Assembly: GCF_000337775.1 (NCBI RefSeq)
Contig: NZ_AOLQ01000042.1
Coordinates: 124,001 to 188,000, forward strand
Direction: 5' to 3'
From: Haloarcula vallismortis ATCC 29715
Lineage (GTDB): Archaea > Halobacteriota > Halobacteria > Halobacteriales > Haloarculaceae
Length of the DNA stretch: 64,000 nucleotides
The notes under the pieces are model-generated. The model ran no database searches, was not told where the DNA came from, and worked only from the letters and a program-made list of their open reading frames with translations. Below, one piece after another: positions 53,242 through 63,141 of the stretch (positions are counted from its first letter, which is position 1; each line of letters starts with the position of its first letter). Both the position numbers and the translations under genes were made by a program.

Positions 53242-55782
53242 CTACGGCCCGAGTCCGAGGTCAGCAGTCCCCTCCGCTCCCTGATAGCGGTCCCGGTCGT
53301 CCCAGTCGGCGATGCTCGAATGCGTCTCCCAGACGGCAGTCTCCAGATGCGCCTGCGTTATGTCCGAGCCGTCACGCAAGGCGTGCCGCGCGGCGTCCTC
53401 GGCGAGGAGTTCGAGGTCACTGGCAGCGTAGCCGGCCGTCGGCTCGACGATGGCGTCCCAGTCGATGTCACCGGCGACGGGCCGCTCCTGCAGGTGGATC
53501 TCCAGAATCTGCCTGCGAGCCTCGGCGTCCGGCGGCGGGACCTCGACACGCTCGTCGAACCGACCGGACCGCCGGAGCGCCGCGTCGATGTCCTCGACGA
53601 AGTTCGTCGCGGCGACCACAACGATGTCGTCAGCCGCTGCGCCTTCGAGTTCGGTGAGGAGTTGGTTGACCAACTGCTGTTCGCTCGTGTTCATCGAGCC
53701 CCGCCGCGACCCCGCGATGCCGTCGATTTCGTCGATAAACAGCACGCAGGGGGCGTTCGCGCGGGCCACCTCGAACACCTCGGCGACGTTGCGGGCCGGC
53801 TCGCCCATCCACTTGCTCGTCACGTCTGCGGGGCTGATTTCGACGAAGCTATGCCCGAGTTCACCCGCGAGCGCGCCGGCGAGGTGGGTCTTCCCACAGC
53901 CGGGCGGGCCGTACAACAGCAGGCCCGATAGTACGTCGATGCCGTACTCGGCGTATGCGTCGGCGTTCTGAAGCGGATCGAGGACCGTGTCTTCGAGCCG
54001 GGCTTTCAGGTCGCCCATCCCGCCCACATCGGCGAAGTCGCGTCCGGGGTCGGTCTCGACCAGTGAACTGGCCTGCAGGTCGACGCCGTCGGGCTGGACG
54101 ACGCCGTTCTCGGCAACCATCTCGGGGTCAACCCAGTCCGCGATGCTCGTGTCAGTCTCCGTGGCGGCCTGCATCAGGTGGTCCGTCTCGATTGGAGCGT
54201 CCGCTCGCAGTGCCTTTCGGGCGGCGTCCTCGGCGATGAGTTCGATGTCGCTGGCCGCGAAGCCGGCCGTCTCCTCGACGACGGAGTCCAAGTCGATGTC
54301 AGCCGCGGTCGGCCGACCGGCGAGGTGAATCTCCAGAATCTGCTTGCGGGCTTCGGGGTCCGGCGGCGGCACCTCCACCCGCTCGTCGAACCGGCCCGAG
54401 CGGCGGATGGCGTCGTCTACGTCCTCGACGAGGTTCGTCGCGCCCAGCACGACCACGTCCTCGTCGGCGATGCCTTCGAGTTCGGTGAGCAGTTGGTTGA
54501 CCAGTTGCTGTTCGCTACTGTTCATGTTGCTGTCGCCGTCGCGCGCGCCGGCGATGCCGTCGATCTCGTCGATAAAGAGGATACAGGGGGCGTTCGCGCG
54601 GGCGATCTGGAACAGCTCCTCGACTTTCTGTGCGGGTTCGCCCATGTACTTGCTGGTCACGTCGGCCGGCGTGACCTCGATGAAAGCGTGGTCGACCTCG
54701 CCCGCGAGCGCGCCGGCGACGTGGGTCTTCCCGCAGCCGGGCGGGCCGTGCAGGAGGACGCCGTTGACGACGCCGATACCGTACTCCTCGAAGGCGCTGG
54801 GGTCCTGTAGCGGCCGGACGACCTTGTGGTTGAGCGTTTCCAGCAGGTCGCTCATCCCGCCCACGTCGGCGAAGCTCCGGGAGGGGTCCGGGTCGACCAA
54901 CTGGTCGGCTTGCATGTCGACACCGTCCGGCTGGACCACCGACCCGTCGTCCGACGGGCGCTCGCGGTTAATCGAGGGCGCGCCGTCGGAGGTGTCGGGG
55001 CCGGTATCGGCCGGGTCGGTGTCGTCGGACTCGTCGATCCGCTCCCGGATGTTCCGTTCGAGCCGGTCGGGGTTGACCTCGTAGCCATACTCGGCTAGCC
55101 GGCGGGGTTCGGCGCTGAGGAACTCGGCGAGCCAGCCGTGACGTTTTAGCTCCTCGGTCGGGGCGTCTGGGTCACGGAACGTGACGAGCTTGACGTCCGA
55201 GCTGTCGGGCGAGTGGTACTCGGCGAGCCAGAAGGGGAGATACAGGCGCTCGACGGCGGTCACACCGTCGAACCCGTCGGGGTCGAAGTCCCCGGGGAGC
55301 CCGTAGGACTCCCTGAGCTTCCTGAGGAAGACGTTCGCCGCGCCGGAAGCGGCGTCCTGTTGCTGTTCGCGGTACTCTGCGACGCGCTGGGGCAGCAGCG
55401 ACCGGGCGTCGTCGTCGGTGACCTGAAACTGCAACAGGACGGACCGGCCAAGCGCCGGGTCGCTGCGGCCGAAGTCATAGTCGCCCGTCGCTCGGCGGAC
55501 CACCGCGTCGGTGTCATCGACGTACTGGGACACCGCCCGGTCGTTGTCCGCCCAGAGGCCGTCGAGAAACGCCGTCTCGGATTTCCTCGTCGTGCCGAAC
55601 AGCTTCCCCTCGCCGGTCTCGTACTCGTAGTCGACTTTGAACACCGGATAGAACACGCGGTGGAGGCGTTCGAGTTCCTCGACATCGCCGAAAGCGGTCA
55701 TCGTCCGCTGGTCGAGGGTCTCCCTGACGGTTTCCTCGTCGGGAACTCGACGGTCGGCGTAGATGTACGGCGGCAGACTCAT
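53242..55782 (-). CDS. Tandem AAA ATPase with unusual N-terminal domain (CDC48-like)
   Basis: Encodes 846 residues. Two AAA modules: Walker A GPPGCGKT at 346-353 and 625-632, Walker B ILFIDEID at 401-408 and VLFIDEID at 680-687, arginine-finger motif RRSGRFDE near 460 and 737. Each is preceded by the same linker VVQPDGVD(M/L)QA (282-291 and 561-570), pointing to duplication of linker plus ATPase. The first 250 residues are not the double-psi N-domain of CDC48/VAT; I do not recognise them. It is co-transcribed after phosphopantothenate synthetase (4-base overlap). It may unfold or remodel an unknown substrate. Confidence 0.9.
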   Translation of the reverse strand: MSLPPYIYADRRVPDEETVRETLDQRTMTAFGDVEELERLHRVFYPVFKVDYEYETGEGKLFGTTRKSETAFLDGLWADNDRAVSQYVDDTDAVVRRATGDYDFGRSDPALGRSVLLQFQVTDDDARSLLPQRVAEYREQQQDAASGAANVFLRKLRESYGLPGDFDPDGFDGVTAVERLYLPFWLAEYHSPDSSDVKLVTFRDPDAPTEELKRHGWLAEFLSAEPRRLAEYGYEVNPDRLERNIRERIDESDDTDPADTGPDTSDGAPSINRERPSDDGSVVQPDGVDMQADQLVDPDPSRSFADVGGMSDLLETLNHKVVRPLQDPSAFEEYGIGVVNGVLLHGPPGCGKTHVAGALAGEVDHAFIEVTPADVTSKYMGEPAQKVEELFQIARANAPCILFIDEIDGIAGARDGDSNMNSSEQQLVNQLLTELEGIADEDVVVLGATNLVEDVDDAIRRSGRFDERVEVPPPDPEARKQILEIHLAGRPTAADIDLDSVVEETAGFAASDIELIAEDAARKALRADAPIETDHLMQAATETDTSIADWVDPEMVAENGVVQPDGVDLQASSLVETDPGRDFADVGGMGDLKARLEDTVLDPLQNADAYAEYGIDVLSGLLLYGPPGCGKTHLAGALAGELGHSFVEISPADVTSKWMGEPARNVAEVFEVARANAPCVLFIDEIDGIAGSRRGSMNTSEQQLVNQLLTELEGAAADDIVVVAATNFVEDIDAALRRSGRFDERVEVPPPDAEARRQILEIHLQERPVAGDIDWDAIVEPTAGYAASDLELLAEDAARHALRDGSDITQAHLETAVWETHSSIADWDDRDRYQGAEGTADLGLGP

Positions 55783-61091: not shown

Positions 61092-62144
61092 ATGCTCCAG
61101 CGGGCAGCGCCACAGGACTTCGAGCGCGTCCTCTCGTCGATGTGTACCGTGCCACACCCGTCGGCACGCGAAGCAGCAGAACGCTTCCTCGCGACGAACC
61201 CCGGAGACCCGGGTACGTACGAGACCATCGCCGATCTGGAACGCGAGGCTGTCGACTATCTCGGCGAGATCACCGGGCTCTCGGACCCCGCAGGATACGT
61301 CGCCTCGGGCGGGACAGAGGCCAATCTTCAGGCGATACGCATCGCCCGGAACCGCGCCGATACGGACGACCCGAACATCGTTGCGCCCGTCCACGCCCAC
61401 TTCTCGTTTACCAAGGCCGCTGACGTGCTCGGTGTGGAACTGCGGACTGCGCCGGCGACGGACTACCGTGTCAACATGGCGGCGATGACCGAACTCGTCG
61501 ACGAGGACACCGTGTGTGTCGTCGGCGTCGCCGGCTCGACCGAGTACGGCTATGTCGACCCAATTCCGGCCATCGCCGACCTCGCCGAAACAGTCGACGC
61601 CCTCTGTCACGTCGACGCCGCGTGGGGCGGCTTCTACCTCCCGTTTACCGACCACGAGTGGCACTTCGGCCACGCGGACATCGACACGATGACCATTGAC
61701 CCGCACAAGGTCGGGCAAGCAGCGGTTCCCGCCGGCGGGCTGCTCGCTCGTGACCGCTCGCTGCTTGACGAACTCGCCGTCGAAACGCCGTATCTGGAGT
61801 CCACGGACCAGCTAACCCTGACGGGCACGCGGTCTGGCGCTGGCGTGGCCTCTGCCGTTGCGGCGATGGAGTCGCTGTGGCCGGCGGGGTACAGGGAGCA
61901 GTACGAAACATCGATGGCCAACGCTGACTGGCTGGCTGACCAGCTATCGGCGCGGGGCCACGACGTGGTCGGCCCCGAACTCCCACTTGTCGCGGCCGAC
62001 CTCTCGATGCCGATGACAGACGAACTACGGGACCGCGGCTGGCGAGTCTCGAAGACCGGTGCCGGTGAGATGCGCGTCGTGTGTATGCCGCATGTGACGC
62101 GGTCGATGCTGCGGTCATTTGTCGCGGACCTCGATTGGTATTAA
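61092..62144 (+). CDS. mfnA: Tyrosine/aspartate decarboxylase MfnA
   Basis: Encodes 350 residues, PLP-dependent group II decarboxylase. Lys206 in [12 protein letters not shown] binds PLP; Asp175 ([10 protein letters not shown]) pairs with its ring nitrogen. In archaea lacking methanofuran it acts as aspartate decarboxylase giving beta-alanine for CoA; the neighbour phosphopantothenate synthetase supports this. Its last 44 bases before the stop are repeated at 62408-62451. Confidence 0.93.
62097..62140 (+). repeat. 44-base direct repeat, copy 1, 3' end of mfnA
   Basis: The final codons of mfnA ([14 protein letters not shown] and the first two bases of Tyr). An exact copy is at 62408-62451, offset 311 bases. 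Both copies are followed by a stop (TAA and TGA). Confidence 0.92.
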
Positions 62145-62189
62145 ATCGAGGGACAATTCTGTCGCCGCGAGCGGAGCGAGCGGCGTTCA

Positions 62190-62227
62190 CCGACTGCGAG
62201 GACTGTGTCCGAGCAGTCGGCCTTTTT
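62190..62227 (+). terminator. Hairpin plus T5 after mfnA
   Basis: CCGACTGC (62190-62197) and GCAGTCGG (62213-62220) pair perfectly, followed at once by CCT5. It resembles an intrinsic terminator and stands 46 bases past the mfnA stop. Confidence 0.6.
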
Positions 62228-62233
62228 CACCAC

Positions 62234-62260
62234 CGAAAGACTCGCTTCGCTCGTCTTTCG
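62234..62260. repeat. Hairpin in mfnA tail region
   Basis: CGAAAGAC and GTCTTTCG around an 11-base loop (TCGCTTCGCTC). Confidence 0.7.
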
Positions 62261-62277
62261 AGCCTTGCTTCGTGGTT

Positions 62278-62298
62278 CGAGAGAGCTTCGCTCTCTCG
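62278..62298. repeat. Triloop hairpin in mfnA tail region
   Basis: CGAGAGAGC, loop TTC, GCTCTCTCG: nine-base perfect stem. Confidence 0.85.
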
Positions 62299-62304
62299 TC
62301 ATCA

Positions 62305-62323
62305 CGAGGGGCTGCGCCCCTCG
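62305..62323. repeat. Triloop hairpin in mfnA tail region
   Basis: CGAGGGGC, loop TGC, GCCCCTCG: eight-base perfect stem, the same shape as the hairpin inside valS (1860-1878). Confidence 0.85.
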
Positions 62324-62361
62324 AACGACTCCGCTCAGCAAGACCACGTTTTTCGAGGAGT

Positions 62362-62378
62362 GGTCGCCGAAGGCGACC
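62362..62378. repeat. Triloop hairpin in mfnA tail region
   Basis: GGTCGCC, loop GAA, GGCGACC: seven-base perfect stem. Confidence 0.8.
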
Positions 62379-62407
62379 CGACGATGAAAAAGGTGGTGTC
62401 GCAGGTC

Positions 62408-62451
62408 ACGCGGTCGATGCTGCGGTCATTTGTCGCGGACCTCGATTGGTA
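62408..62451 (+). repeat. 44-base direct repeat, copy 2
   Basis: Exact copy of 62097-62140. With the bases before it (GTC for GTG) and after it (C then TGA for T then TAA) it encodes the same 16-residue ending, [16 protein letters not shown]. Confidence 0.92.
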
Positions 62452-62556
62452 CTGAGCTGCTGTCTGAGGGTGTGACAGACTGGCGAACATACCGGTATTG
62501 AGCGCTCCCGAGGGGACATACGAAGGTTTAGAAGTGCCTGTTTGTTACAGAGAGGC

Positions 62557-63141
62557 GTGGAACTGGTAGTACCGACCGCAGCGTTCATTGCCTTCATCGG
62601 TGACTGTACGACCGCCGGCACTCCACTGTCGCCGCTCGAAGAGGCCGTCTGTACGGCCACCGGTCCGACCGGACTAGGTATCATCGCGGTGTACTCGTTC
62701 CTGATCGCGTTCATTCTCCCGCTCCCAAGCGAAGTCGTGCTGGTTCCGGCCGAAACACTTCGGCTCGGACTTTCCACGAACGGGAATCTGGTGGCGATTA
62801 TCATCATCAGCGGCCTCGGGAAGGCGTTCGGTAGTCTCGTCGCCTTCCATATCGGTCAGGAGGCAAAGGAGTACGGTCCGCTCGTTCGCCGAATCAAGCG
62901 CTCCCGGTTCAACATCATCGAGTGGTCGGAAAAGAAGACGGTACAGCTAGCACAGAAGTACGGGTACGTCGGTCTGGCGCTTGCGCTCTGTGTGCCCTTC
63001 TTCCCCGACACCATCTCTATTTACGCGTTCACCGTCCTCGAACGCGACTACTATCGGTTCGGCGCAGCGACGTTCTTCGGCAGTGCCGGACGGCTCGTCG
63101 TGACACTCGGGCTCGCCAGCGGGACGCTCGTGCTCTTGTGA
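62557..63141 (+). CDS. VTT-domain (YqaA/DedA-like) membrane protein
   Basis: Encodes 194 residues with four to five hydrophobic segments (LGIIAVYSFLIAFILPLPSE, LVAIIIISGLGKAFGSLVAF, YGYVGLALALCVPFFPDTIS). The pattern E..(V)P, then GK..GS and PFFPDT fits SNARE-associated/VTT proteins, thought to move lipids or ions. The start is GTG at 62557; TTG at 62542 is the alternative. Function in haloarchaea unknown. Confidence 0.83.
   Translation: MELVVPTAAFIAFIGDCTTAGTPLSPLEEAVCTATGPTGLGIIAVYSFLIAFILPLPSEVVLVPAETLRLGLSTNGNLVAIIIISGLGKAFGSLVAFHIGQEAKEYGPLVRRIKRSRFNIIEWSEKKTVQLAQKYGYVGLALALCVPFFPDTISIYAFTVLERDYYRFGAATFFGSAGRLVVTLGLASGTLVLL

Follow-up and report, generated by a model that had tools for sequence, protein, structure and literature searches.

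In Haloferax volcanii, a T5C motif alone terminates 95% of transcripts in vivo; the intrinsic terminators of that species have T5C after genes, and hairpins precede many of the 3' ends (PMC7237163). The locus described here, at the end of mfnA in a 64,000-nt stretch of Haloarcula vallismortis DNA (the window), shares these features; it differs in that a conserved, dispersed hairpin, termed module M, bears T5C on both strands and lies between two copies of the gene tail. Like M, the small mobile repeats (SMRs) of Haloquadratum are short palindromes that have terminal inverted repeats, lack a transposase and are mobilised in an unknown way (PMC3119063). SMRs reportedly target other mobile elements and cause no target duplication, whereas M sits at gene ends, often beside long tail copies, and 59 of the 129 M copies among the matches listed were flanked by direct repeats. 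The same study describes repeat-mediated deletions that remove the DNA between direct repeats while retaining one copy, comparable to the strains with a single mfnA tail, but it describes loss only and not the origin of the repeats.

MITEs and PATEs (IS605-related) are likewise short, non-coding, palindromic and dispersed, and M has the terminal inverted repeats expected of a MITE. Unlike these elements, M lacks a short target duplication of fixed length, its flanking repeats being variable (19–136 bp) and absent from about half of the copies among the matches listed, and it retains a conserved scaffold in which the inner hairpins turn over. Integrative elements that use tyrosine recombinase att sites are flanked by gene-end direct repeats and leave the target gene intact. 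M is flanked in the same way, with the gene intact, but its arrangement has no integrase, spans only 100–250 bp and occurs at many unrelated target genes; between the mfnA tails, no integrase gene or relic was found, only 267 bp of hairpins. A diversity-generating retroelement (VR/TR) was rejected as an explanation, as the two mfnA copies differ by C/T, T/G and G/C without adenine bias. No named haloarchaeal element with tail duplication was found in the open-access literature, and a survey of REP elements makes no mention of Haloarcula, Haloferax or Halobacteria (PMC12306157).

The mfnA tail repeat and its spacer

The mfnA gene (61092–62144, forward strand; from the ORF list) encodes a tyrosine decarboxylase MfnA whose product scored 354.9 bits against the TIGR03812 equivalog (cut-off, 299.4). 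Its tail was found as a direct repeat of 55 bp at 95% identity (62086–62140 and 62397–62451) with a spacing of 311, the left edge being its less similar part. Copy 1 (62086–62140, forward) supplies the functional C-terminus, and copy 2 (62397–62455, forward) has its own TGA stop; the exact 44-bp recurrence of 62097–62140 at 62408–62451, first noticed in a sequence-only reading of this DNA, was confirmed as their common core. The left end of copy 2 is joined directly to M and its right end to native downstream DNA. The window contains no other intergenic short-range repeat of this type. Long direct repeats at 53390–54099 and 54221–54936 (spacing 831–837) lie inside coding sequence and probably represent two ATPase domains of one protein.

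Four parts follow copy 1 on the way to copy 2. Hairpin hp0, CGCCGCGAGCGGAGCGAGCGGCG (62163–62185, forward), was read from the sequence and has the same position in the relatives L010 and L022. Hairpin hp1 with its T5C (62190–62228, forward; T5C at 62223–62228) is a predicted forward terminator, judging from its fold and from the T5C of Haloferax. An optional spacer (62229–62343, forward) then contributes a dispersed module with further hairpins at 62234–62260, 62278–62298 and 62305–62323. Module M (62344–62396, assigned to neither strand) comprises the hairpin CCACGTTTTTC ... GAAAAAGGTGG, was recognised by covariance model match and covariation, and carries T5C forward at 62349–62354 and reverse at 62391–62386. 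The sequence-only reading had counted five perfect hairpins here, three of them with three-base loops; those at 62278–62298, 62305–62323 and 62362–62378 are indeed perfect and have such loops, whereas 62190–62220 and 62234–62260 contain two internal mismatches each. The T5 that it placed after 62190–62220 is present. The 267-nt spacer folds far better than its shuffles (z = −6.2 as RNA and −5.7 as DNA), and a search of 61900–62700 with the Rfam covariance models returned nothing up to E = 1.

The same tail-element-tail arrangement, with the same junction, was present in the independent genomes G015, G005, G004, G016 and G025 (the last from another branch), ruling out the assembly artefact for which the earlier reading had allowed. 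Since the structure recurs in independent assemblies and in other genera, the probability that it reflects artefact or chance is next to nil.

Parts of the mfnA spacer are dispersed in their own right. A 138-bp part has a 99% identical copy elsewhere in the genome (G000:C38), and other parts recur at about a dozen places. The module between the first T5C and M, ACCGAAAGACTCG..CTTTCGAGCCTTGC..CAAGAC with two to four hairpins, was seen at 62229–62343 and also at L002, L003, L004, L007 and L008. It is present at L045 and lacking from most orthologues of this locus in relatives, as though the module could move independently.

Module M is associated with tail duplication and transcript boundaries

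M has the form CCACGTTTTT-variable hairpin-AAAAAGGTGG, with T5C on both strands and the inverted repeat CCAC[G/C]TTTTTC, imperfect at one base, at its two ends. Alignment of 33 copies revealed that 98.8% of pair cells were formed, with 54 double changes (0/500 shuffles) and a C-G to G-C change at the stem base among the covarying pairs. T5 pairs with A5 in all 121 distinct copies among the matches listed. A covariance model of M gave 13 matches on the genome (about a dozen copies) and one in the window, at 62342–62396 (56.7 bits, E = 1.2e-11). Of 108 genomes sampled from the order, 21 had the strict pattern, which was densest in the family of the present genome; the reversed control pattern occurred in 0/108. 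A viral origin of M was considered improbable, just four IMG/VR viral contigs (L284–L287) having the pattern. The mfnA spacer is one member of a family of intergenic palindromic elements in haloarchaea.

We next describe what M adjoins in a sample of at least 129 copies, taken from haloarchaeal DNA by the exact pattern; the proportions describe this sample only. Among the matches listed, a repeat of the left flank directly followed M in 59 of 129 copies, with lengths of 19–136 bp (median, 59) and start points 0–14 bp from the right end of M, apart from a few internal matches. When flanks were swapped as a control, about 1% reached such repeat scores. At these 59 loci the repeat nearly always corresponds to the tail of the left-hand gene including its stop codon, and the gene body was on the same side of M in every duplicated case checked. 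L068 and L075 are apparent exceptions, in which the duplication seems to cover the start of an opposite-strand gene whose body is again on the left. Orthology links many of the 59 loci (about 30 gene families by hand count), so the independent duplication events are fewer than 59. With low-complexity sequence and N runs set aside, most short-range repeats of 30 bp or more in the 856 kb surrounding M copies occurred at M. The present genome has the duplication at five of about 15 M loci: mfnA, L047 (putatively citrate synthase-like, from its sequence), L049 (putatively gatB-like), L290 and L296. The suggestion of the sequence-only reading that a palindromic element may sit at gene ends together with a copied gene end was therefore right in substance, and it extends far beyond mfnA.

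Non-duplicated copies mostly adjoin other transcript boundaries. Convergent genes of at least 100 codons with a stop beginning 0–6 bp from M were found at 29 of the 70 non-duplicated copies (about 1.2 expected) and at 0 of the 59 duplicated ones, among the matches listed. Most of the remaining non-duplicated copies among these matches, read by eye, adjoin either the 3' end of a convergent tRNA or the promoter that comes next. At L045 and at the rnpB promoter, the position of the element is kept in 9–10 species of the Haloarcula group, while the inner hairpins differ.

The terminator element directly precedes the RNase P RNA promoter in 10/10 Haloarcula-group genomes read (L171–L179 and L052). 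Its inner hairpins vary and its stem ends co-vary, with CCCACG/GGTGG in some and CGACG/CGTCG or GGTCG in others.

The simplest function for M and the hp1-T5C elements would be that of a bidirectional transcription terminator, because T5C terminates 95% of transcripts in Haloferax volcanii. A T stretch followed by C occurs downstream of mfnA at 62223–62228 and 62349–62354 on the forward strand and at 62391–62386 on the reverse, and M is placed between transcription units, beside stop codons and promoters.

The duplicated loci also share a junction. In about 22 duplicated rows (a hand count gives roughly 17 gene families), and also at gatB and two other loci of the present genome, GGTGG is followed by 3 nt matching the gene and one extra base, after which the match resumes. 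The extra base is mostly C, sometimes T and rarely two bases; it may arise at or soon after duplication, because some highly similar copy pairs have it. Copy 2 keeps its stop codon at most loci. The frame of the copy relative to M is mixed over all loci and many copies have a 1-nt insertion, contrary to the earlier impression, drawn from mfnA, that the reading frame is kept as if selected.

Tandem arrays of gene tail plus terminator were also observed, at L005/L006 (G000:C21, about 14.5–14.9 kb), L149, L076, L130 and L157, with two or three units of about 120–190 bp each.

Histories at mfnA and gatB

Comparison of mfnA among relatives revealed four states: tail-element-tail with the same junction (the present genome and the five named above), other junctions (for example, G012, G013, G017 and G002), one tail alone, and one tail plus a remnant of the last ~22 bp. 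In the gene tree, the same-junction state lies on basal branches of a 15-species clade. The arrangement is apparently ancestral in this clade, consistent with a single old origin and repeated losses. Downstream of copy 2 lies the DNA that follows mfnA in single-tail species. Over the 42-nt core, the two tails differed on average at 1.7 sites within genomes and at 3.9 sites between genomes, while the 13 nt beside M in copy 2 were mostly copy-2-specific across species. The copies are homogenised within each genome by gene conversion that fades at the edge, and their exact identity therefore does not mean that the duplication is young. Of the two readings first offered for this identity, a recent event or ongoing gene conversion, the latter holds, whereas a recent origin does not, the junction being common to five other genomes.

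At gatB, the present genome has the order tail-hp-M-tail, whereas the single tail found in nine relatives matches copy 2 and the DNA beyond it; copy 1 ends differently (LLQEELN against LREELES). Copy 2 is the native tail. G004 shares this hp-M and its right junction and has, farther along, another hp-M of a different type and a third tail; two M variants with three tails indicate that the insertions at gatB were separate. Between the present genome and G004, the block from GAAGAGCTAAAC to the end of M is identical at 109/112 positions (97%), and this identity runs on into copy 2, whereas gene and copy 1 are 83–87% and the flanks as a whole 80–87% (about 85%) identical. A block of about 140 bp with its terminator, 98% identical between the two species inside these diverged flanks, thus passed between lineages, with exchange points in the two tails. 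When about 45 orthologous pairs were tested for such cassette transfer, most hairpins had diverged further than the genes. A general horizontal transfer was rejected on these grounds, gatB being the one clear case; L074/L157 gave a weaker hint.

Origin of the duplicated tails and its meaning

Our preferred reading, to which we give roughly even credence, is that a bidirectional terminator was inserted in the mfnA tail together with a replacement tail, with later conversion, spread and loss. The inserted segment would bring a replacement tail and the terminator, leaving the old native tail behind M as copy 2; hp1-T5C would stop mfnA transcripts, and the T5C motifs of M would act on both strands. 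Gene conversion would then keep the tails alike, the two tails could act as short homology arms for passage of the cassette between species, and recombination between them would delete the terminator plus one copy. We infer the insertion event and its polarity; as no fresh insertion was caught between near-identical strains, insertion with tail replacement was not directly seen. Counting against this reading are the arrays at L149, L076, L130, L157 and L290, by which tandem amplification also occurs; the one-pyrimidine insertion after 3 nt, which it does not predict; and the finding that only the gatB pair shows clear short-tract transfer. More tentatively, M may represent a new family of mobile bidirectional terminators that enter the last ~130 bp of genes in fixed orientation, copy or replace the tail, leave a junction of GGTGG, 3 target nt and a pyrimidine, and use the tails as interspecies homology arms.

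The main rival is a transposon-like insertion of hp-M in which the tails are a long, variable target duplication (about 20–135 bp) and only insertions that leave the gene intact survive. Repeats that flank M directly on both sides (L116, L080, L112, L115 and L144), the imperfect terminal inverted repeat CCAC[G/C]TTTTTC, tight junctions with the recurrent 1-nt signature, and the gain by G004 of another, distinct M together with a further copy of the tail all speak for it; we nevertheless consider it rather unlikely, given M copies without any target duplication and a gene body that lies consistently to one side of M throughout the duplicated cases checked. To our knowledge, long variable target duplications are not described for MITE or IS elements, which also counts against it. 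Tandem duplication of the gene tail and terminator, by slippage or by a break at the M hairpin rejoined to the sister chromosome, with the second terminator decaying, would account for the (tail-hp-M)n arrays at L149, L076, L130, L157 and L290 and for partial or decayed hp/T5 after the second copies at L116, L080, L112, L060, L087 and L143. It certainly amplifies some arrays but fails to account for gatB, where pristine native DNA follows copy 2 and the non-native tail is copy 1, not copy 2; the simple tandem duplication proposed in the sequence-only reading is unlikely there, its pure form was rejected for this locus, and as a general account we judge it improbable. It is very doubtful that copy 2 is itself functional, for example by giving rise to an antisense RNA that ends at the reverse T5C or by encoding a peptide. 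The stop is kept at most loci, and an antisense transcript from the right would end at M's CCACCTTTTTC; against this, the frame relative to M is mixed, 1-nt insertions are frequent, copy 2 has been lost repeatedly and without trace at mfnA, and gene conversion alone explains the similarity. A peptide-coding role was rejected on account of the mixed frames.

The recurring order of gene tail, terminator and tail copy points to an undescribed route of terminator insertion and gene-end copying. Haloarchaeal intergenic regions thereby gain a readable grammar, with a T5C palindrome fitted exactly between stop codons, tRNA ends and promoters, and annotators should note that such tail copies are not genes. 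A recurrent process would give genes new tails and terminators without breakage, gene conversion keeping its trace visible, and the junction signature renders the generating mechanism testable. The tails on either side illustrate how homologous recombination can carry a 100-bp non-coding cassette from one species to another.
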